From Olsenella uli DSM 7084 (GTDB lineage: Bacteria; Actinomycetota; Coriobacteriia; Coriobacteriales; Atopobiaceae), in assembly GCF_000143845.1 (NCBI RefSeq), contig NC_014363.1, positions 1,473,186-1,537,185 of the forward strand: a stretch of 64,000 nt of DNA, written 5' to 3'. Shown piece after piece: positions 400 through 37,065 of this stretch; positions within the stretch are counted from its first letter, which is position 1; each line of letters begins with the position of its first letter. The notes beneath the pieces are model-generated. The model had not been told where the DNA came from, made no database searches, and saw only the letters and a list, made by a program, of their open reading frames with translations. Made by a program: the position numbers and the translations under genes.

Positions 400-469
400 A
401 TTAGGCTGCTGGTTCATTAGGCTGCTGGTTCACAACAGCTCCTAAGGCTCACAACAGCGCCTAATTCAC
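400..469. repeat. Two adjacent perfect or near-perfect short tandem duplications
   Basis: ATTAGGCTGCTGGTTC (16 bp) occurs twice head to tail at 400-415 and 416-431. It is followed by a 19-bp unit starting ACAACAGC at 432-450 and 451-469. They sit in the leader of the partial gene at the left edge. The rest of 167-399 shows no convincing gene or signal. Confidence 0.85.
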
Positions 470-692
470 ACTACTTGCTGTGCCGTCCACTTTTGAAGGG
501 CGGATGGATGGCTAGAGAACTTCTGTGAGTGTCGCGAGGAGGAATTTCACAATAACTCGCCACGCATCCCATCATGTGCGCCAGAACGCACCTCAGAGGA
601 ACTATTGTGAGCGTACGCCCAAGTCACACTCACAATAGTTCTCCTCCCATCCAGAGGACCCCGAAAAACGGACGCGTGAGCAACTATTGTGA
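466..692. repeat. Hairpin cassette, copy A (three tandem 63-64 bp hairpins)
   Basis: Three successive inverted repeats lie at 466-528 (63 bp), 547-610 (64 bp) and 630-692 (63 bp), separated by 18-19 bp. Each has roughly 23-nt arms that begin TCACA and end near a CC(A/G)TCC core, a loop of about 17 nt, and a complementary arm ending TGTGA. Hairpin 3 has a perfect outer 11-bp stem, TCACAATAGTT against AACTATTGTGA. A degenerate fourth start (TCACAGAAAG) follows near 710. The array lies downstream of hisF. Copies with the same order of hairpins are at 13877-14114 and 35601-35837. Confidence 0.85.
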
Positions 693-781
693 AAACGGAT
701 GCCGCTAGACTCACAGAAAGTCCCCTGCGATCCAAGTGAAGCCTGCTGCCATGGCGCGCGTTCATGCGGCCCCACGCGGAC

Positions 782-2362: not shown

Positions 2363-3019
2363 CTACCCCCTCGCCACGTTCACGAAGTTGGAGAGGATCC
2401 GCATGCCGGCGTGCGACGACTTCTCGGGATGGAACTGCACGCCGAAGACGTTGTCCTTCCACACGCCGGAGGCAAAGCTGCATGCGTAGTGCGTGGTGGC
2501 CGCCACGATGCCGCCGTCGATGTCATCCGTCGTGGCATAGGAGTGCGTGAAGTAGACGTTCGCCCCCTCAGGGACGTCCACGAAAAGCGGGCACCTGCGG
2601 CCATGCTCGGTAAGGTGCGCCTGGTCCCAGCCCACATGTGGGACCTTGAGCCGCGAGGACTCCAGGCGTGCGACCGAACCCTCGAGCACGCCAAGACCAC
2701 CCACCCACTCGCCGTTGCCACGGTGGCCCGCCGAACGTTCGGCACCTCGCTGGAACAGCAGGTGGAGACCCAGGCAGATGCCCAGAAAGGGCACGCCCGC
2801 ACCGATGCGGCCCACGATGGCGTCGGCCTGGCCGCTTTGCCGCATGTAGGCCATCGCATCCTCGAACGCGCCCACACCCGGCAGGATCACGGCGGCGGCG
2901 CGGTCGATGTCGGCAGGCTCGTCGCTGGCGAACGCATGGCCCCCTGCGGCGTTGACGCCGCGCACCACGCTCTGTAGGTTTCCCTTGTGGTAGTTAACCA
3001 CCACGATGTCGCCGCGCAT
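2363..3019 (-). CDS. hisH: Imidazole glycerol phosphate synthase, glutaminase subunit HisH
   Basis: This 218-aa class I glutamine amidotransferase supplies ammonia to HisF. FLGICLGLHLLFQ holds the nucleophilic Cys, and GVQFHPEKS holds the His and Glu of the triad. The reading frame extends upstream into hisB, but the start MRGDIVVVNYHKGNLQ fits the family. Its ATG at 3019 overlaps the hisB stop in the ATGA arrangement, so this start is chosen. Confidence 0.96.
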   Translation of the reverse strand: MRGDIVVVNYHKGNLQSVVRGVNAAGGHAFASDEPADIDRAAAVILPGVGAFEDAMAYMRQSGQADAIVGRIGAGVPFLGICLGLHLLFQRGAERSAGHRGNGEWVGGLGVLEGSVARLESSRLKVPHVGWDQAHLTEHGRRCPLFVDVPEGANVYFTHSYATTDDIDGGIVAATTHYACSFASGVWKDNVFGVQFHPEKSSHAGMRILSNFVNVARG

Positions 3020-3609
3020 CACGACAGGCTCCCCTTCGTCGAGGGGACGCCGCTCACGCGCGGGTCCGGCCCGCACGCCAGGCGCAGCGCGCGTGCCGCC
3101 GCCTTGAAGGTGCATTCCAACACGTGATGGGCGTTCTCACCGGCCATCCTGCGCAGGTGCAGGGTGATGCCAGCGTCACGGGCGAGGCCCGCGAAGAACT
3201 CGTGGCCCAGCTCGGTGTCGAAGCTGCCGACCTTCTCGGCCGCTATGGGCACGTCCCAGAACAGCTCACCACGACCGGAGATGTCGACGGCCGCGAGGAC
3301 GAGCGCCTCGTCCATGGGAACGCAGGCGTCCGAGAAGCGCGTGATGCCGCTCCTGTCGCCCAGCGCCTGCGCGATGGCCCGCCCCATGACGATGCCCACG
3401 TCCTCCACGGTGTGGTGATCATCCACCCAGGTGTCGCCCTTCGCGCGGACCGTGAGGTCCACGAGCGCGTGGCGGCCGAAGGCATTCAGCATGTGGTCGA
3501 AGAATCCGACTCCCGTCTCGACATCCACCTTCCCCGACCCATCGAGGTCGAGCGTGACCATGACGTCGGTCTCGCCCGTCTTTCGCGTGATCGTCGCACG
3601 CCTGTTCAT
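3019..3609 (-). CDS. hisB: Imidazoleglycerol-phosphate dehydratase HisB
   Basis: This 196-aa monofunctional dehydratase converts imidazole glycerol phosphate to imidazole acetol phosphate. The metal-binding signatures GVGFFDHML and DDHHTVEDVGI are both present, as is a second HxxH-type motif near the C-terminus (ENAHHVLE). There is no phosphatase domain, so histidinol phosphatase must be encoded elsewhere. The start overlaps the hisC stop by 4 nt (ATGA), and the end overlaps the hisH start. Confidence 0.96.
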   Translation of the reverse strand: MNRRATITRKTGETDVMVTLDLDGSGKVDVETGVGFFDHMLNAFGRHALVDLTVRAKGDTWVDDHHTVEDVGIVMGRAIAQALGDRSGITRFSDACVPMDEALVLAAVDISGRGELFWDVPIAAEKVGSFDTELGHEFFAGLARDAGITLHLRRMAGENAHHVLECTFKAAARALRLACGPDPRVSGVPSTKGSLS

Positions 3610-4709
3610 CGTGACCCTCCCTTGAGGATTTCCGCGAGTGCGGAGAGGACAGCGTCGTTCTCCTGGGGCGTCCCCACGGTCATGCGCAGGCAGCCATCGA
3701 GCCCCGGCGTGGCCGAGAAGTCACGCACCAGTATGGAGCGCTCGTCGCGCAGTTGACGGTGGACCTCGTGTGCGCCTGGCACGCGCACCAGCAGGAAGTT
3801 TGCCGCGCTAGGCCACACGCGGACCCCCAGGCCCACAAGCTGCCGAAGGCCTCCCGCAAGCCGCTCGCGCTCGGCCTCGATCTCCTCGATGGTGGCCGAG
3901 AAGGACATGCGGTCCCTGACCACCTCCAGCGCCGCTGCCTGGGAGAGCACATTGACCGAATAGGGCTGGCGCACCGTCGCGAGCGCGCTCACGACCGAGG
4001 GAGAGCCCAGAACGTAGCCTATGCGTGCGCCCGCCAGGCAGAACGCCTTCGAGAGCGTGTGCAGGATGGCAAGGTTCTCGAACTCGGGGAGCAGCGGCGC
4101 CGCAGTCGAACCCTCGGGCGCAAACTCCACGTACGCCTCATCCAAAAGGACGATGCCCGGGCACGCCTCGCAGAGCCTGCGGGTGTCCCCTATGGGGAAC
4201 AGGTCCCCCGTGGGGTTGTTGGGCGACGTGACGATCACGAGGCTCGCGGCGCGCGCGGCCGTCACGAGCGCGTCGACATCGACCGCGAAGCTGTCGGGAT
4301 CGCGCGGGACGTCCACGACCGCGGTCTCGAGGAGCTGCGCGTACAGGCGATACATGGAGAAGGTGGGAGGCAGGTTCACGAGCGCATGGTCACGGCCACC
4401 GAACGCCAAAAGCAGGTTGAACAGCAGCTCATCGCCACCGTTTCCCACCATGACCTGGTCGGGGTCCACGCCATGCCACGCGGCGAGCTCCGAGCGCAGG
4501 GCATCCGAGAGCGGCTGGGGGTAGCGGTTGGCCACGACCTTGGCCAAGGCTGCCTCCACATGGGCCTGGACGTCATCCGGCATGCCGTAGCCGTTCTCGT
4601 TTGCCGAGAGGTTGATGCTGGCCGGCAGGAACGCGGGGTCGTAGGGTTCGAGGTCTGCCGCGGAGGGCCGCATGGCGGCCCGCACCGCGTCGTTGATGCC
4701 TGGGGACAT
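3606..4709 (-). CDS. hisC: Histidinol-phosphate aminotransferase HisC
   Basis: This 367-aa fold type I PLP enzyme transaminates imidazole acetol phosphate. The protein shows NLSANEN near the N-terminus (substrate loop), GNGGDELLF, the PLP-contact segment SPNNPTGD, and HTLSKAFCLAG with the Schiff-base lysine. The open frame continues upstream through antisense-like sequence, but MSPGINDAVR at 4709 gives normal family length. It lies 76 bp after hisD. Confidence 0.94.
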   Translation of the reverse strand: MSPGINDAVRAAMRPSAADLEPYDPAFLPASINLSANENGYGMPDDVQAHVEAALAKVVANRYPQPLSDALRSELAAWHGVDPDQVMVGNGGDELLFNLLLAFGGRDHALVNLPPTFSMYRLYAQLLETAVVDVPRDPDSFAVDVDALVTAARAASLVIVTSPNNPTGDLFPIGDTRRLCEACPGIVLLDEAYVEFAPEGSTAAPLLPEFENLAILHTLSKAFCLAGARIGYVLGSPSVVSALATVRQPYSVNVLSQAAALEVVRDRMSFSATIEEIEAERERLAGGLRQLVGLGVRVWPSAANFLLVRVPGAHEVHRQLRDERSILVRDFSATPGLDGCLRMTVGTPQENDAVLSALAEILKGGSR

Positions 4710-4785
4710 TGGCGCGAGGCTCCTTCCGGTGTCGAGGGGACGTGGCGTCCGTGGAGAGGCCGGGACGGGGAACGGACCGGCGCGA

Positions 4786-6186
4786 CTATGCGGGGCCACC
4801 GGAGGGCCTGGGCACGCCAGGCTCGCTGAGCCTGCGTGGCCAGGCGGTCGCCATGGCATCAGCGCATGCTGCGGCAGGATCGGCGAACTTCTCGCCCCCC
4901 TCCGCCAGCAGCTTGCGGCGCATGCCCACGGAGAGGGCATGCGCCCATAGGCCCTCGGCCTGCGCCATGGCCTGAACGGCGGGACCGTCGACGGCCAGGC
5001 CCTCGGGACTGTAGCCGATGACGCTCGAGCGCTTGGTGAAGTCGTAGACGCCCAGGGGGTTCGAGAAGCGTGCGGTTCCGCCGGTCGGAAGCGTGTGGTT
5101 GGGACCGGCAACATAGTCGCCCAGGGGCTCGGAGCTCCAGGCCCCCACGAAGATGGCGCCAGCATTCCTGACCCTGCCCAAAAGCGAGAACGCGTCTTGG
5201 CAGTGAAGCTCGAGGTGCTCCGGGGCAATCACGTTGACCGCATCGATGGCATCGCCCAGGGTGGCGCAGCAGACCACCAGGCCCCTCTCCGCAAGCGAGG
5301 TGCGCGTGATCCCCTCGCGCGGGGACTGGGCGACCAGGAGCCCCACGGCGTCGAGAACGCGCTGGGGCAGGTCGGCATCGCAGGTCACCAGGTAGCAGGT
5401 GGCCATGGGGTCGTGCTCGGCCTGGGCCATGAGGTCCGCCGCGACGATTGCGGGGTCTGCGCTGGCATCCGCGAGGACGCACACCTCGGAGGGTCCGGCG
5501 ACCATGTCGATGCCCACGTCACCCGACACGCATCGCTTGGCTGCCGCGACGTAGGCGTTGCCGGGGCCCACGATCTTCTCGACGGGAGGGATGGACTGCG
5601 TGCCATAGGCGACCGCAGCGATTGCCTGGGCACCCCCGACGGCGTAGACCTCATCGACGCCGGCGACTGCGGCGGCGGCGAGGGTGTAGGCGGAAAGCGA
5701 GCCGTCGCGCTGGGGTGGCGTGACCATGATCACGCGCTCGACGCCGGCGACCTTCGCGGGGATTGAGCCCATGAGGACCGTGGAGGGATACTGTGCGCGC
5801 CCACCGGGCACGTAGAGCGCCGCAGACGTCACGGGCGTCACCTTGACGCCCAGGACGGTGCCGTCCGCGCGGGTGGTGAACCAGGACTGCTCGCGCTCCC
5901 TCTCGTGGAACTCGCGAATCTGGGCGGCCGCCCTGCGCAGGGCCTCCCGGAACTCCGGGTCGACCATGCCCAGCGCATCGGTGATGACAGACCCGTCCAC
6001 GCGGAAGCTGTCAGGGCACGCGCCGTCGAACTTCAGGCAGAAGTCGCGCACGGCCCGGTCGCCACCCTCGCGGACGGCGCGCACGATCCCCTCGGCCGCT
6101 TCCATGACCTCGCGGGGAAGCGCACCCTCGCGGCGCAGGTCGTCGCGGGTGAGCTGCTGTCCGGTGGAAAGGCTCACGAACCTCAT
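4786..6186 (-). CDS. hisD: Histidinol dehydrogenase HisD
   Basis: This 466-aa zinc and NAD enzyme oxidises histidinol to histidine in two steps. Diagnostic stretches are KIVGPGNAYVAAAKR, VAGPSEVCV, MAQAEHDP with zinc and catalytic residues, and AGPNHTLPTGGTARF. The ribosome site is GAGGAG before ATG 6186, and the stop of hisZG lies 3 bp upstream. The C-terminal 25 residues are Pro/Ala-rich and probably disordered. Confidence 0.96.
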   Translation of the reverse strand: MRFVSLSTGQQLTRDDLRREGALPREVMEAAEGIVRAVREGGDRAVRDFCLKFDGACPDSFRVDGSVITDALGMVDPEFREALRRAAAQIREFHEREREQSWFTTRADGTVLGVKVTPVTSAALYVPGGRAQYPSTVLMGSIPAKVAGVERVIMVTPPQRDGSLSAYTLAAAAVAGVDEVYAVGGAQAIAAVAYGTQSIPPVEKIVGPGNAYVAAAKRCVSGDVGIDMVAGPSEVCVLADASADPAIVAADLMAQAEHDPMATCYLVTCDADLPQRVLDAVGLLVAQSPREGITRTSLAERGLVVCCATLGDAIDAVNVIAPEHLELHCQDAFSLLGRVRNAGAIFVGAWSSEPLGDYVAGPNHTLPTGGTARFSNPLGVYDFTKRSSVIGYSPEGLAVDGPAVQAMAQAEGLWAHALSVGMRRKLLAEGGEKFADPAAACADAMATAWPRRLSEPGVPRPSGGPA

Positions 6187-6189
6187 GGG

Positions 6190-7875
6190 TCACTCCTCAC
6201 CCTCGGCACCCAGACGGGCGCAGGCGCAGGCACGCGCAAGGCGCCCCGCGAGGTCGCGAATGCGCTCGTCGGAGCGATAGGCGGCCGGGCTGGCAAAGAA
6301 GCGCGCCGTGCACTCCATGACCTCGTCGACGATCACGAGGTCGTTCTCGCGCAGCGTGGTTCCCGTCGCGGCGATGTCGACCAGGCGGTCGGTCATGCCG
6401 ACGAGGGGGCCCAGCTCTATGTTGCCGTGCAGGGAGACGATGTCGACCTGTTGCCCGATGGAGTCGTAGTAGCCCTGCGTGATCCGCGGGTACTTGGTGG
6501 CGACGCGCACCGTGCCGCGCCAGGCATAGGCGCCCTCGGCGGCACCCGCCTTCGAGCGGGGCTCTGCCACCACAAAGCGGCAGGCGCCGAAGCCCAGGTC
6601 CACCAGCTGCAACACGTCGATGCCGGCCTCGATGATCGAGTCGTTCCCGCAGATGCCGCAGTCCGCGCCGCCATGGCCGACGAAGGCCGGCGCGTCCTGC
6701 GCGCGCACGATGACGTACTCCACGCCGCCTGCGGGGATGACGAGGCGGCGGCCAGGTTCGCGGAGCTCGGCCACGGGAAGGCCCGCCTCCTCGAGAAGAC
6801 GGATGGCATCCTTGAGGAGGCCGCCCTTCGGGACGGCAATCCTCAGGGGCCGCTCGGCGTTGCCGGCACGCGCCGAGACGACGCCGGACTCCCCCTGCTC
6901 GCCCAAGACCTCCTGGGTGCGCTCGAGCGAGAGGGCAAAGCCGCAGGAGGCCACGCCAGGCCTGCCGAGATTGGCGAGCACCGCGTCATAGCGGCCACCC
7001 GAGGCGATGGAGGCCGTCGTGGCCTCGGAGTAGGCCTTGAAGACGATGCCCGTGTAGTAGTCGAACGAGTTGATGATCGAGAAGTCGAAGGACAGGCGCC
7101 CGTCAGCAACCAGCCCCGGCAGGCCGCAGGCGAGCTCGCGAAGCTGTGCCGTGCCGCGATGGCCCCTTGCGATGCCGGCCTCCGCCAGAAGGGCGTCGAC
7201 CTCGTCGATGACCTGGACGCCCCCGGCAAGGCGGCAGATCCTGTGGAGGGCACGGGCGGCGGCGCGAGGAAGGCCCTCCGCCGCGGCCACCAGCTCGTCG
7301 AGGCCCACGAGGTCCGAGCCGTGAACAAGACGCAACACCTCCTCGCAGAACGCCTTGCTCGGGGCGCAGGCGTCCAGGAGGGCAGTCAGGGGCGACACGG
7401 ACCCGCAGGAGATGCGCCACGCGGGGACGCCCAGGGCATCGAGGGACTCCGCGAGCAGGGACATGACCTCCACCTCGGGGCTCGCGTCCGTATCACCGAA
7501 GAGCTCGACGCCCATCTGGGTGAACTGGCGCGGCTGGCCCCCCAGTGCGGACCCCTCGCGCACGACGGGCGCCTCGTAGCGCAGGCGCACGGGCAGGTCG
7601 GCGTCCGAGAAGCGGGCCGACACCATGCGCGCGATGGGAAGCGTGAGGTCGGGACGCAGGACCAGCAGGCTGCCGTCGGCATCGAACAGCTGGAACGGGG
7701 AGTCCTGCATGCGACCGCCTTGCTCGAGGGAGCTGCGGTCCTCGATGAGCGGAGGCTCGACGGGCAGGTAGCCATGTCCCGCAAAGCATGCGCGCGCCTG
7801 TGCGCGGATGCGCTCGCGGGCGAGCGCCTCGGTAGGCAGGATGTCACGAAAGCCCCTTGGCGTCCGTACGGTCAA
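6190..7875 (-). CDS. hisZG: HisZ-HisG fusion: ATP phosphoribosyltransferase regulatory and catalytic subunits in one chain
   Basis: One uninterrupted frame of 561 aa carries two enzymes of the first histidine step. Residues 1 to about 330 are HisZ, a histidyl-tRNA-synthetase-like regulatory domain (TPRGFRDILP, LRPDLTLPIAR, DYYTGIVFKAYSE, ASGGRYDAVLANLG). Residues 344-561 are short-form HisG (LRIAVPKGGLL, GGADCGICGNDSI, the PRPP-loop stretch DIAATGTTLREND). No stop, internal Met or ribosome site separates them. I chose the TTG start at 7875 because GAGGGGGG lies 6 nt upstream and TPRGFRD is the usual HisZ N-terminus; an ATG at 7923 without a ribosome site is the alternative. It is the first gene of the operon. 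Confidence 0.92.
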   Translation of the reverse strand: MTVRTPRGFRDILPTEALARERIRAQARACFAGHGYLPVEPPLIEDRSSLEQGGRMQDSPFQLFDADGSLLVLRPDLTLPIARMVSARFSDADLPVRLRYEAPVVREGSALGGQPRQFTQMGVELFGDTDASPEVEVMSLLAESLDALGVPAWRISCGSVSPLTALLDACAPSKAFCEEVLRLVHGSDLVGLDELVAAAEGLPRAAARALHRICRLAGGVQVIDEVDALLAEAGIARGHRGTAQLRELACGLPGLVADGRLSFDFSIINSFDYYTGIVFKAYSEATTASIASGGRYDAVLANLGRPGVASCGFALSLERTQEVLGEQGESGVVSARAGNAERPLRIAVPKGGLLKDAIRLLEEAGLPVAELREPGRRLVIPAGGVEYVIVRAQDAPAFVGHGGADCGICGNDSIIEAGIDVLQLVDLGFGACRFVVAEPRSKAGAAEGAYAWRGTVRVATKYPRITQGYYDSIGQQVDIVSLHGNIELGPLVGMTDRLVDIAATGTTLRENDLVIVDEVMECTARFFASPAAYRSDERIRDLAGRLARACACARLGAEGEE

Positions 7876-8338: not shown

Positions 8339-10153
8339 CTAGCGGCGGAGGAGGCGCCCGAAGATGCGGCGCGCGACGTCCATCTCGGGCGCGTGGGTGA
8401 GCGCTGCCAAGCCATAGGTCACGACGAGCGCGGGGACGCCGCCACAGACGATGTAGAGCAGCGCGCCGGAGACGGAAAGGCGCTCGACGTAGTTGCCGAG
8501 GGTCGTAAGGTTCAGCAGCACGGCAGAGGCCGCTACGCCCGCCACGCCGAACGCCAGCGCGCGGAGCGCGGAGCCGACGATCCCCACGAGCCCGACGTGG
8601 CCCAGGTGGCGCTTGAGCATCGCAAAGGTCACGACGTCGACCGCCGCGAAGTACAGGAAGGACGAGAAGGCCACCATCCAGAGCCCGACGACAGGCGTGA
8701 GGAAGATGCAGGCGGCGACTTGGATGAGGGCTGCGATGACGTTGGAGGTCGCGTACAGCCTCATCTTCCGCAGTGACGAGCAGACCTTCTGGAGGTACAT
8801 GCAGACCGCATACACGGGCAGCCCGACGGCGAGCGCCGAGAGGTAGTTCGCCGTCATGCCGATCTGGTCGGACGTGAAGTTGCCTGCGGCGAGCAGGGTG
8901 ATGAGCGGGAACGAGAACTGGACGAGGTACATGCCGAACGGAATCATGAAGAACAGGATCTTGCTGGTCCCCGACGAGACGCCCCGTCGGTAGGAGTCCA
9001 TGTCGCCCCGTGCGACGTCGTCGGAGAGCTCGGTGAACATGGCCGTGGTGATGGGCACCGCGAGTATGGCGTAGGGCAGCGTGTACCAGAGGCGCGCGTA
9101 GTACGAGACGGACGCCCCCTCGGCCGCGACGAAGAGCGCTGAGCTGGTCTGGACCGACACGGTCACGAACGAGCAGAGCATGACCACGAGCGACGGTATG
9201 CCGATGGAGAGCGTGTCCTTGATGGCGGGGTCATGAAGGTCGACGTGGAAGCGCAGCCGGATGCCGTGCCTCCTCAGCGAGGGCATCTGCATGACGACCT
9301 GGACCGCGACGCCCAGGGGGTTGCCAAGTGCCAGCAGCAGGAGCGCGAGCTGGGGGTTCTCGCCAACCAGGAAGGCATAGGCAAAGAACGACGCCGTGGT
9401 GACGAAGTTGTTGAAGATGGGGGCCGCACTGCTCCAGAAGTAGTCGCGCTCGGCGTTGAGGACACCCGAGAAGATGGAGCTCAGCGAGTAGAGGACGACC
9501 TCGATCACGAAGAAGCGGAAGAAGTAGACCGCAAGGTCGCTGTCGAACGCATCGCTGGCCGAGAAGGACTGGGTGAACACCACCTGGTAGGCAAAGACCA
9601 GGCCCAGGACCGTGACGGCGCCCATGAGTATGCACACGAGCGACACGAGGTTCGAGGTGTAGGCACTCGCCCCCTCGCGACCGTACCTCTTCTTGACTGA
9701 GAGGTAGACCGGCAGGAAGGCCGTGACGAGCATGCCGCCGACGACGAGCTCGTAGAGCTGGTTGGGTAGGTTGTTGGCGACCGAGTAGCACGACGCCGTG
9801 ACGGTGACGCCCAGGGCGTACGCCTGTCCCCAGGTGCGCAGGAAGCCCGTGAGGCGGCTGATGACGACGAGGACGCTCATGAGGGCCGTGTTGCGTCCCA
9901 CCTGGGCCGAACGGTCCGCCTCACGGTCCCTCTCGGCCGATCCCCCGTCGGCAGGGCTCCCCCCATCCCCGCGCACGGAGGCAGGCGCGTCGGACGCCGG
10001 CATCGCCTGGGACGTATCCCCTCGCGAGACCTGGTCGGCAAGCCTGACGTAGAGCATCGTCTCCTCGGGGGACGCCCCGCCCCATGCGCCCTGCTGGGTG
10101 CGTGCGCGGGACGGCTCGCCCTTCGGTGCCATGTGCCTGGGGCTCCGGGCCAC
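8339..10153 (-). CDS. murJ: Lipid II flippase MurJ (MviN)
   Basis: This is a 604-aa polytopic membrane protein of the MOP exporter superfamily that flips lipid II for peptidoglycan synthesis. After a polar N-terminal extension of about 90 residues come the MurJ hallmarks: SVLVVISRLTGFLRTWGQA, NNLPNQLYELVVGGML, then about 13 further hydrophobic segments. The GTG start at 10153 has AGGAGGT six nt upstream, supporting the long N-terminus. It follows ybaK by 59 bp, probably in one transcript with uvrA and ybaK. Confidence 0.9.
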   Translation of the reverse strand: MARSPRHMAPKGEPSRARTQQGAWGGASPEETMLYVRLADQVSRGDTSQAMPASDAPASVRGDGGSPADGGSAERDREADRSAQVGRNTALMSVLVVISRLTGFLRTWGQAYALGVTVTASCYSVANNLPNQLYELVVGGMLVTAFLPVYLSVKKRYGREGASAYTSNLVSLVCILMGAVTVLGLVFAYQVVFTQSFSASDAFDSDLAVYFFRFFVIEVVLYSLSSIFSGVLNAERDYFWSSAAPIFNNFVTTASFFAYAFLVGENPQLALLLLALGNPLGVAVQVVMQMPSLRRHGIRLRFHVDLHDPAIKDTLSIGIPSLVVMLCSFVTVSVQTSSALFVAAEGASVSYYARLWYTLPYAILAVPITTAMFTELSDDVARGDMDSYRRGVSSGTSKILFFMIPFGMYLVQFSFPLITLLAAGNFTSDQIGMTANYLSALAVGLPVYAVCMYLQKVCSSLRKMRLYATSNVIAALIQVAACIFLTPVVGLWMVAFSSFLYFAAVDVVTFAMLKRHLGHVGLVGIVGSALRALAFGVAGVAASAVLLNLTTLGNYVERLSVSGALLYIVCGGVPALVVTYGLAALTHAPEMDVARRIFGRLLRR

Positions 10154-10710: not shown

Positions 10711-13611
<2,901 letters not shown>

Positions 13612-13876
13612 GGGTACCTCTCGATGCATGGTCGTGCGTATACCTCGTGCAGCGTACCCGTTATGGGGGAGCAGGGACGGCTTTCGGAGAAGGTCACATG
13701 CCAAAAGCACGAACCAGAACAAATATTCGGTTGCGTTCGGTTGCCGTGTGCCGGTGCCACGGGCGTTCGGCTGCCGCAGCTGACACCACGCAGGGTCCAA
13801 CATATGTCGGCACGCGTGGACCCGACGCGCAGGGAGGTGCGCAGGGCAACTTCTGTGAGCGGGTGGCAACCAAGAC

Positions 13877-14114
13877 TCACAGTTCTTCTCCAGCCGTCCA
13901 TTTCAAGGACCTGGGTGGACGGCAGAGCAACTTCTGTGAAGACACCGCACGTCATCACTCACACTATCTCTCCTGGCAACCAACAATCTCCTTGCCGTCC
14001 GTGAGCATCGGACGTGAGGAGAGCTATTGTGAGTCTATCCACTTCCGCCGCTCACAATAGTTCACCTGCCATCCGTCACGTTACGAAAAGTGGACGCCAA
14101 GCGAACTATTGTGA
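13877..14114. repeat. Hairpin cassette, copy B (three tandem hairpins)
   Basis: Hairpins lie at 13877-13939 (63 bp), 13959-14032 (74 bp) and 14052-14114 (63 bp). A half unit ending CAACTTCTGTGA lies just before, at about 13847-13858. Hairpin 1 pairs an arm ending AGCCGTCC with one starting GGACGGC. Hairpin 3 pairs TCACAATAGTT with AACTATTGTGA. The order and lengths match copies A and C, except that hairpin 2 is about 10 bp longer. The array lies between uvrA and the DUF4173 gene. The remaining bases 13612-13845 form the uvrA leader; I see no gene there. Confidence 0.85.
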
Positions 14115-33852: not shown

Positions 33853-35475
33853 ATGGACACCAACGGCTCCAGCATCACACGGCGCACGTTCATCAGGGGC
33901 GGCCTGGGTGCGGCCCTCTCGGCGGCGGGCGTCGGCCTCACGGCCTGTGGTGGCCCCTCCGACGCAGGGAGGACGGACGTGCCGAGCGACACGGGCGAGC
34001 CCAAGGTGCTGCGCTTCGGCGTCTCCAACCCCAAGGTCACCTTCGACACCCAGAAGACCTCCAACGACGTGGGCGTCTCCGAGGCAGTGGCCGAGGCCCT
34101 GGTGAACATGGACCCCGACACCAAGGAGATCTACCCCGTCCTCCTGACCACGCTGCCCAGCGTCTCGAGCGACGGGCTCACCTACAGCTTCACCCTGAAG
34201 GACGACGTCAAGTTCCACAACGGGGAGACCCTCAAGTCCAGTGACGTCAAGTACACGCTGACGCGCATGTTCCTGCCCGAGACCAAGGCCACCTCGATCG
34301 ACTCCTTCGTCTACATCAAGGGCTCGCAGGACATCATCGACGGCGTGGCCACCGAGCTCTCGGGCGTCCAGGTGCAGGACGACACGCACTTCACCATCGA
34401 GCTGACCCAGCCCTACTCCACCTTCCTCGCCATGATGTCCGAGTTCTATGCGATCATCTACCCCGAGAAGGCCTGCACGGAGGCGGGCGAGGCCTGGGGC
34501 TCCGGCACCACCTTCATCGGCACCGGCCCGTTCAGGCTCGAGTCCAACGACGACAGCACCGAGGTGGTCCTCAAGGCCTTCGAGGACTACCACGAGGGCA
34601 AGGTCGACCTGGACGAGGTCGACTTCGTCTACATCGATGACGCCAACACGCGCATGCTCAGCTACAAGAACGCTGACATCGACCTGGCGTTCATCGACCG
34701 CAGCCTCATCAAGACCTATGCTGCGGACGACGACGTCAAGGATGACATCGTCTACTACGCCCCGGCGTCCACGCAGTTCGTGAACCTCAACCTCAAGGAC
34801 GAGAAGCTCGCAGACGTTCGCGTGCGCCAGGCGCTCTCGCTCGCCATCAACCGCAGGGAGATCTGCGACACCGTGCTCTCCGGCGCCGCCGAACCCGCCA
34901 GCTGCTTCTGCCCCTCCTCGGAGTCAGGCCATGACGGCAGCTACGACGTGCTGGACTATGACGTCGAAAAGGCCAAGTCGCTGCTCGCCGAGGCCGGTGC
35001 CGATGGCCTTGCGCTGAGCGCCCAGGTGCGCTCACAGGACCAGGACCTCATGGTCGCCCTGCAGGACGCCTGGTCCAAGATTGGCGTCAGCTGCGACGTC
35101 CAGGTCATCGACAACGGCGTCTGGTCCGAGTCGCGCAAGAACGGCACGCTCCAGGTGACGCTGGTCACCTGGTCGACCCTCTGCTTCCAGGGCATCGAGC
35201 ACATGGGCTCCTACTTCAGGAGCGACCGTGCGGCTGCCAAGAGCTCGTTCTACGAGAGCACCGTCTTCGACGCGCTCGTAGACGAGGCGCGCCAGACCAC
35301 CGACGGCGACAGCGCCATCGCCAACCTCGCCAAGCAGGCCGACAAGCAGCTTGTCCGCATCGACTATGCCTGCCTGCCCGTCTGCTGGCCGCAGATGCCC
35401 TATGCCCTCAAGAGCGACTTCAAGGGCCTGCAGGTCCTGGTGAACCCCCTGTTCAGGAAGGTCACCAAGGGCTGA
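33853..35475 (+). CDS. oppA: Oligopeptide ABC transporter substrate-binding lipoprotein (family 5), OppA1
   Basis: This 540-aa protein has a twin-arginine-like N-terminus (RRTFIRGGLG) and lipobox LTAC with Cys32, so it is a lipid-anchored periplasm-side protein. The family 5 signature FHNGETLKSSDVKYTLTRM and FVNLNLKDEKLADVRVRQALSLAINR are present. It resembles the second binding protein at 40219-41844 and may feed the same OppBCDF. GAAGGGA precedes ATG 33853, and TAGAAT near 33792 may be its -10. Confidence 0.92.
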   Translation: MDTNGSSITRRTFIRGGLGAALSAAGVGLTACGGPSDAGRTDVPSDTGEPKVLRFGVSNPKVTFDTQKTSNDVGVSEAVAEALVNMDPDTKEIYPVLLTTLPSVSSDGLTYSFTLKDDVKFHNGETLKSSDVKYTLTRMFLPETKATSIDSFVYIKGSQDIIDGVATELSGVQVQDDTHFTIELTQPYSTFLAMMSEFYAIIYPEKACTEAGEAWGSGTTFIGTGPFRLESNDDSTEVVLKAFEDYHEGKVDLDEVDFVYIDDANTRMLSYKNADIDLAFIDRSLIKTYAADDDVKDDIVYYAPASTQFVNLNLKDEKLADVRVRQALSLAINRREICDTVLSGAAEPASCFCPSSESGHDGSYDVLDYDVEKAKSLLAEAGADGLALSAQVRSQDQDLMVALQDAWSKIGVSCDVQVIDNGVWSESRKNGTLQVTLVTWSTLCFQGIEHMGSYFRSDRAAAKSSFYESTVFDALVDEARQTTDGDSAIANLAKQADKQLVRIDYACLPVCWPQMPYALKSDFKGLQVLVNPLFRKVTKG

Positions 35476-35528
35476 GGGGGGCTGTAGGCGAGCAAGACAG
35501 GAGCGGGCAGGCTGGCATACGGCGCTGC

Positions 35529-35547
35529 CCCGCTGCCCCTCAGCGGG
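35529..35547 (+). terminator. Hairpin downstream of oppA1
   Basis: CCCGCTG-CCCCT-CAGCGGG forms a 7-bp GC stem 54-72 bp after the oppA1 stop, with no U-tract. A weak candidate terminator or the edge of the hairpin cassette. Confidence 0.35.
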
Positions 35548-35600
35548 CATCGATAACATGGACGGCAGGGAAGTTACTGTGAGCCTTGGCCGAGAGAACT

Positions 35601-35837
35601 TCACAGTTCTTCGCTAGCCGTCCAGTTTTCTGTCCCTCATGGATGGCTGGATAACTAGTGTGAAAATTTTTGAAACTAACTCTCGGGTGCACTCACAATA
35701 CCTCGCCACGCATCCGCAAAGTGACCCTATCCGGGATGTCTGGCGAAGTATTGTGAATCTGTCCCCATCGCAACTCACGATAGTTGTCCTGCCGTCCCCG
35801 GGGCCTCTAAAAATGGACGCGTGAGAAACTATTGTGA
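35601..35837. repeat. Hairpin cassette, copy C (three tandem 63-64 bp hairpins)
   Basis: Hairpins lie at 35601-35663 (63 bp), 35693-35756 (64 bp) and 35775-35837 (63 bp), with a half unit GGACGGCAGGGAAGTTACTGTGA-like block ending at 35582. Hairpin 2 begins TCACAATACCTCGCCACGCA, one base different from hairpin 2 of copy A. The right arm of hairpin 3 also matches copy A closely. The array lies between convergent oppA1 and oppF. The rest of 35838-36012 shows no gene. Confidence 0.85.
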
Positions 35838-36012
35838 ATGAGGTTGTAGGGCAAGGATGCGAGGACAGCGCATCGCGGCCTGGCGGAGCGCGAAAGCCGC
35901 TGCGAACCGATACGGTGACATCCCATCCCCGACCGCCACGCGCTCATTGATGCGCCCGTAACGCCGCCATCCAACTTTCTGCCGAACCCTGCCGCAGCGT
36001 ACGTCCTTCACC

Positions 36013-37065
36013 CTACGCCTGTGTCTTGGCCTCGGGCGCAATGCCCACGAGCTCTCGCTCCGCTTCTGAGAGCGCCTCGTCGAAGAGGTGGCAGGCGCAG
36101 AGGTGCCCGGGCTCGACCTCACGCAGCTCGGGCGCGACCTCGGTGCAGACCCTCATGCACCGGCTGCAGCGCGTGTGGAACACGCAGCCCTCGGGCGGGT
36201 TGGTGGGACTGGGGACGTCGCCCTGCAGGATGCGCTTGTCCTGGATGCGCTCGTGACGGATGCGCGGGATGACGTCGAGAAGGGCCTGGGTGTAGGGGTG
36301 CAGTGGCCTCTCGAACAGCGCGTCCTTCTCCGCCAGCTCCATCTCGTGACCCAGGTACATGACCATGACCGTGTCGGAGATGTGCTTGACGACGGAAAGG
36401 TCGTGGCTGATGAAGACGTAGGACAGGCCCAGGTCGTCCTGGAGCCGCTCCAGCAGGTTGATGACCTTGGCCTGCACCGACACGTCAAGCGCGGAGACCG
36501 GCTCGTCGCACACCACGACCTCGGGCTCGAGCACGATGGCGCGGGCGATGCCGATGCGCTGGCGCTGCCCTCCGGAGAACTCGTGCGGATAGCGGTACTT
36601 GTAGGAGAGGTCCAGGCCCACGGCGCCCATGACCTCCTCGACGCGGGCGTCGCGCTCGGCCTTGGTCTTGTAGGTGCCGGCGATGTCGATGGGCTCGGCA
36701 ATGATGTCGGCCACGGTCATGCGCGGGTTGAGCGAGCTGTACGGATCCTGGAAGATGAGCTTCATCTTCTGGCGCGCCCGTACCAGCGCGTCACCCGAGA
36801 GCGCGGTGAAGTCCTCTCCGTCCAGCGTGACCGTGCCCTCGGTGGGCTCCGTCAGACGCAGGACGCACTTGCCCGTGGTGGACTTGCCGCAGCCCGACTC
36901 GCCGACGATGGCGAAGGTCTCGCCCCTGTGCAGCTCGAAGGACACGTCCTCGAGGGCATGGACGAACTGCCGGGACTTGCCGAAGAGGCCCTTCTTGATG
37001 GGATAGCGCTTGGTGAGGTGCTCCGCCTTGAGCACGACGTCGTTCATGTCCCTGTTCCTGCCCAT
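36013..37065 (-). CDS. oppF: Oligopeptide ABC transporter ATP-binding protein OppF
   Basis: This 350-aa ABC ATPase has Walker [14 protein letters not shown]-loop LIFQDPYSSLNPRMT, signature FSGGQRQRIGIARA, Walker B VVVCDEPVSALDVS and the C-terminal oligopeptide-transporter extension with four cysteines (CVFHTRCSRCMRVC), which in this family can hold an Fe-S cluster. It pairs with OppD. Start ATG 37065 follows the oppD stop by 3 bp. Last gene of the opp operon. Confidence 0.95.
   Translation of the reverse strand: MGRNRDMNDVVLKAEHLTKRYPIKKGLFGKSRQFVHALEDVSFELHRGETFAIVGESGCGKSTTGKCVLRLTEPTEGTVTLDGEDFTALSGDALVRARQKMKLIFQDPYSSLNPRMTVADIIAEPIDIAGTYKTKAERDARVEEVMGAVGLDLSYKYRYPHEFSGGQRQRIGIARAIVLEPEVVVCDEPVSALDVSVQAKVINLLERLQDDLGLSYVFISHDLSVVKHISDTVMVMYLGHEMELAEKDALFERPLHPYTQALLDVIPRIRHERIQDKRILQGDVPSPTNPPEGCVFHTRCSRCMRVCTEVAPELREVEPGHLCACHLFDEALSEAERELVGIAPEAKTQA

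Follow-up and report, generated by a model that had tools for sequence, protein, structure and literature searches.

The three-hairpin cassettes of a 64,000-bp window (the whole stretch of DNA analysed, bases 1473186-1537185 of the single-contig, 2,051,896-bp genome of the oral bacterium Olsenella uli DSM 7084) are probably, with a likelihood that we put at about 0.75, dispersed and lineage-specific DNA assembly sites for a putative cooperative DNA-binding protein, and not RNA structures. In each array, an asymmetric 23-bp site is repeated 6-8 times in strict alternation, one per ~41 bp. Because this distance equals four helical turns, bound subunits would all face the same side of the double helix, and they could join, aided by A/T-tracts in the outer loops, into a single rigid complex with two-fold symmetry that spans ~230-310 bp. 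Selection appears to have preserved the sites and their spacing, whereas the intervening DNA has drifted. We infer that the binding protein is sequence-specific, cooperative and extant and that the half-sites are under selection; since the site carries 31 bits, the protein is probably multi-domain. Geometry this exact, with a constant 164-bp frame and changes of one helical turn, can seldom be read from the bare sequence, and it predicts that a defined higher-order nucleoprotein forms. Identification of the protein would show either a lineage-private particle that organises the chromosome or how BIME-like arrays arise without RAYT.

A family of intergenic arrays

We found that the pattern TCACAATAGTT, with up to 2 mismatches, matched 19 times in the window, compared with 2.55 +/- 1.40 times in shuffled sequences, all of which stayed below 19. 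Genome-wide, the pair pattern gave 73 matches and its reversed-pattern control 0, the half-site pattern, with one mismatch allowed, gave at least 158 (control, 0), and a sequence-only profile built from 54 pairs gave 165 (both strands counted). These matches group into ~28 loci, all intergenic, across the genome, each array being a row of 6-8 half-sites in alternating orientation. The arrays noticed in the initial sequence-only reading are therefore real and far above chance, with pair coordinates and lengths correctly given, and the genome-wide search that it had called for did reveal further copies. Complete three-pair arrays numbered 21 among those first extracted, plus one more at 1589.7 kb, and partial or decayed loci were located at 90.7, 467, 734, 1155, 1307 and 1818 kb. 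Among the half-site matches listed, all lay inside arrays except at one place, 467 kb, where a second site adjoins; this solitary divergent pair is intergenic (4980-5070 of the extracted stretch) and possibly represents an array remnant. The published genome of the type strain VPI D76D-27C, with 1,795 protein-coding genes, has a single CRISPR entry as its only mention of repeats (PMC3035265). As the earlier reading had supposed, no named family for the element was found in Rfam or in the literature searched.

A PWM scan located seven half-sites in each of the three arrays of the window, to which no strand was assigned. Array A (466-733), on the 3' side of hisF (782-1552, minus), consists of half-sites at 466-488 (+), 506-528 (-), 547-569 (+), 588-610 (-), 630-652 (+), 670-692 (-) and 711-733 (+), with start spacings of 40, 41, 41, 42, 40 and 41 bp and TCACA...TGTGA pairs at 466-528, 547-610 and 630-692. 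Array B (13836-14114), 207 bp upstream of uvrA (10711-13629, minus), has half-sites at 13836-13858 (-, weak), 13877-13899 (+), 13917-13939 (-), 13959-13981 (+), 14010-14032 (-), 14052-14074 (+) and 14092-14114 (-), spaced by 41, 40, 42, 51, 42 and 40 bp, and its TCACA...TGTGA pairs lie at 13877-13939, 13959-14032 (74 bp) and 14052-14114. Array C (35560-35837), on which two genes converge, one for an SBP_bac_5 protein (33853-35475, plus) and one for an oligopeptide ABC ATPase (36013-37065, minus), has half-sites at 35560-35582 (-), 35601-35623 (+), 35641-35663 (-), 35693-35715 (+), 35734-35756 (-), 35775-35797 (+) and 35815-35837 (-), spaced by 41, 40, 52, 41, 41 and 40 bp, and pairs at 35601-35663, 35693-35756 and 35775-35837, the third of which begins with TCACG. 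The view that each array comprises three pairs thus holds for the pairs themselves, but each array extends further, with a seventh half-site on the same lattice (711-733 in A, 13836-13858, weak, in B and 35560-35582 in C). Left of array A, at window positions 401-465, two tandem copies of the 16-bp unit TTAGGCTGCTGGTTCA precede two TCACAACAGC words that lie 19 bp apart; these repeats are a scrambled or rearranged array end.

Each supposed hairpin arm is one copy of the asymmetric 23-bp site TCACAnWAnYTCnCCWGCCRTCC, which contains 31.2 bits of information over 23 bp, with most flanking columns near background. Its degenerate positions are mainly two-letter (W7, W16, Y10, Y14 and R20), a degeneracy that would be as in readout by a protein. 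Half-sites and spacing have been retained, whereas loops and linkers now lie close to background, and this contrast suggests purifying selection and a putative binding protein that still exists; some of the conservation of the half-sites may stem from the shared ancestry of the copies. Several loci have decayed (90.7, 734, 1155, 1307 and 1818 kb), and strong selection therefore does not act on all arrays. DnaA boxes were considered, given that TCACA is similar to their CACA end, and were rejected because the conservation extends over 23 bp.

Helical phasing and two-fold symmetry

The half-sites alternate in orientation and are spaced every 40-42 bp, and nearly all exceptions are longer or shorter by one helical turn. 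Among 130 successive half-sites, the convergent spacings were 40 bp (54 times), 41 bp (11 times) and 51 bp (3 times), and the divergent spacings were 42 bp (30 times), 41 bp (27 times) and 52 bp (3 times), with only two of the 130 spacings, 31 and 35 bp, once each, falling outside these values. The 31-bp spacing is offset by a neighbouring 51-bp spacing, such that 42+51+31 = 124 bp, equal to 42+41+41. First and third pairs lie a constant 164 bp (a few 163 bp) or 174-175 bp apart, even where the middle pair is shifted. Such a frame would be a requirement of a rigid complex with its subunits on one face of the helix, and independent RNA hairpins would not need it. Conservation of the sites above their flanks and spacing in whole helical turns, the two properties looked for in a protein-bound array, were thus both found.

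In the outer 17-bp loops, a T-tract lies on the outer side in the left pair and a mirrored A-tract in the right pair. For example, the left outer loops of array A (489-505, ACTTTTGAAGGGCGGAT) and array C (35624-35640, AGTTTTCTGTCCCTCAT) carry the T-tract toward the outer side, and the right outer loops of array A (653-669, AGAGGACCCCGAAAAAC), array B (14075-14091, GTCACGTTACGAAAAGT) and array C (35798-35814, CCGGGGCCTCTAAAAAT) carry the mirrored A-tract; the left outer loop of array B is ATTTCAAGGACCTGGGT (13900-13916), and none of these loops has an assigned strand. Over 42 outer loops from 21 arrays, T occupies loop positions 3-5 in 76-95% of cases, mirrored between left and right. Similarity between arrays was equal either way (0.357 forward and 0.360 reverse), and each array is a two-fold symmetric unit of ~230-310 bp. 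The impression that the arrays share one orientation is not meaningful, since each is statistically equal to its own reverse complement. R20 is G in 30/42 outer sites and 15/42 inner sites of pairs (Fisher p = 0.002), and because the two differ at this position, the pair itself is not simply symmetric.

Occurrence, gene context and descent

Neither 59 relatives nor 395 other class genomes contained the same element, in searches whose stricter filters lose weak matches, and no copy was found by exact pattern in IMG/VR or GTDB r220 contigs, a search that may omit the genome itself and those near to it. A motif-free lattice scan of ~840 kb, parts of the genomes of relatives, was made for the same layout with another motif and none stood out, with scores of at most 45 in relatives, 53-59 at the best 14 O. 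uli places and maxima of 39-45 in shuffles. Among the genomes sampled, which include no second genome of the genus Olsenella, the element is restricted to the O. uli lineage, and its absence from relatives means that any function is at best lineage-specific. In the uvrA neighbourhood, where array B adjoins the gene in O. uli, one relative has an unlike tandem repeat a few kb away from uvrA, made of ACGTCCAACGCGTC units in direct orientation (~9187-9340 of the stretch examined).

Based on the codon-usage ORF calls made in this analysis, no array overlapped a predicted gene. The neighbouring genes were in tandem on the minus strand at 12 arrays, convergent at 6, in tandem on the plus strand at 3 and divergent at 3; often the 3' end of one neighbour is closer to the array than the start of the other, and several arrays lie hundreds of bp from any gene end, so the location downstream of genes initially noted for the three arrays is a tendency but only that. 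The neighbours are ordinary and unrelated, including genes for EF-G, pyruvate kinase, the valyl- and methionyl-tRNA synthetases, UvrA, HisF and others, and no regulon is therefore apparent; that the flanking gene families share no function speaks against the assembly-site proposal. No common family that might represent a cognate gene beside the arrays was found among ~45 neighbours tested. The 373 kb array lies between a gene for a Cro/C1-type regulator and a gene for a 752-aa protein without Pfam/NCBIfam match (2496-3503 and 4486-6744 of the extracted stretch).

Two pairs of arrays, in different gene contexts, are diverged paralogues with 61.6% and 59.3% identity at non-motif positions, above a chance maximum of 54.7% (99% level) that was taken over one orientation per pair and is slightly lenient. 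In the clearest pair, the array at 55.1 kb and the reverse complement of that at 1706 kb, homology in the alignment extends as far as the outermost half-sites and ends there, and in the second pair one outer site is truncated. Dispersed homologous copies with sharp ends and unrelated flanks, as looked for in a mobile element, are therefore present, clearly so for 55.1 kb versus 1706 kb, and the arrays appear to be related by descent at least in part.

Alternative explanations and possible role

A structured RNA of three hairpins, one of the options initially considered, is very improbable. Taken one at a time, the pairs fold better than shuffled sequences (z -1.7 to -6.3), but this is because two inverted copies of one site stand side by side. 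When arms were re-paired between arrays as a control, we found no compensatory changes beyond chance: complementarity at variable positions was 508 compared with 514.6 +/- 13.2 after re-pairing, standard pairs occupied 78.1% of cells compared with 77.8 +/- 0.7%, and double-changed cells were fewer than expected (49 versus 65 +/- 9). The arms are thus not base-paired partners in the evolutionary sense, and an RNA hairpin family is rejected because they do not covary, a test that the sequence-only reading had itself proposed. In addition, divergent neighbouring sites match as well as convergent ones, linker lengths vary by whole helical turns, the arrays are symmetric with no preferred strand, and no Rfam family reached its gathering score in the window.

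A BIME-like non-autonomous mobile repeat, in which a transposase or recombinase once recognised the sites and multiplied the element, leaving arrays that today are mostly relics, is possible but rather doubtful. BIMEs are regularly spaced, alternating, extragenic and species-specific units, for which, as for REPs, protein binding and chromosome organisation have been suggested as roles, and the REP unit is a short palindrome starting with GTAG/GTGG or similar (PMC2817692). The O. uli arrays are likewise extragenic, dispersed and species-specific with regular alternating units, and the paralogous pairs, the halt of homology at the outermost half-sites and the existence of truncated and decayed arrays all favour a mobile origin. 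However, REPs go with a RAYT Y1 transposase, and Y1_Tnp/RAYT (PF01797) had no match in the O. uli genome although 5/14 control genomes were positive; moreover, the O. uli unit is an asymmetric 23-bp site, neither a short palindrome nor one with a GTAG/GTGG-type start, and its ~28 arrays have degenerate sites and a spacing phased to the helix. The element is BIME-like in layout but is not a REP/BIME, because Y1 transposase and REP-type palindrome, two defining features, are both absent, and a RAYT-driven BIME was rejected for want of a Y1_Tnp match. Movers of the DDE (rve) and serine-recombinase types were likewise rejected, neither being detected in the genome, and the five tyrosine-recombinase matches all lie away from the arrays. 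No near-identical or recent copies were seen in the genome, and evidence of target-site duplication is not convincing: in two arrays whose flanks were inspected by eye, a 4-bp GCGT stands on both sides of the 55.1 kb array and none was seen at 1706 kb. Spacing and sites are also far better conserved than the rest, which is unexpected of relics. The suggested non-autonomous mobile cassette is thus supported in part, by two diverged paralogous pairs with sharp homology ends in the clearest, but neither a mover nor recent copies were found.

Other known systems share parts of the design. The iterons of plasmid and chromosomal replication initiators are asymmetric and long (~20 bp) and, as in O. 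uli, are arrayed in phase with the helix, but they are direct repeats at one or few replication loci, whereas the O. uli sites alternate and occupy ~28 dispersed loci. At transposon ends, the MuA and TnsB sites (~22 bp) are similarly long, asymmetric and several together; however, the O. uli arrays have no transposon body between them and alternate strictly within one array, and no rve transposase was detected. Like MITEs, the O. uli elements are short, non-coding and dispersed with an inverted-repeat character, but they lack a common terminal sequence outside the sites and a convincing target-site duplication, and an autonomous relative was not found.

For the proposed nucleoprotein array, the most likely role, itself only tentatively inferred, would be in chromosome architecture or anchoring; next come a lineage-specific repeat that a once-active mover dispersed and then a transcription roadblock at gene ends. 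A role in chromosome organisation, which had been among the first suggestions, would accord with the helical phasing and with how strongly the sites are constrained. More specifically, and more speculatively, the arrays might carry a chromatin-like particle, formed by a lineage-specific protein on two-fold symmetric, helically phased 6-8-site arrays at ~28 loci and structuring the chromosome, which would be an undescribed class of bacterial chromosomal element. That a protein-covered array serves in transcription control, as a roadblock stopping read-through or an insulator of neighbouring units, is unlikely. In its favour, the arrays are intergenic and often nearer to a gene's 3' end than to a gene start, 6 of them are flanked by convergent genes, a scan of one locus (35300-36100, around array C) revealed no intrinsic terminator, and the symmetric architecture suits a bidirectional block. 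Against it, three arrays lie between divergent genes, several are hundreds of bp from any gene end, the flanking genes are functionally unrelated, and just ~28 loci have an array in a genome with 1,795 protein-coding genes.

Along the chromosome, the arrays crowd at 575-900 and 1307-1730 kb and thin out near 100-570 and 900-1300 kb. This weak bimodal distribution (two-cluster Rayleigh p ~0.011, post hoc) is only suggestive as support for an anchoring role. The dnaA gene lies at 2046 kb and one ParB gene at 1 kb, near the presumed origin.
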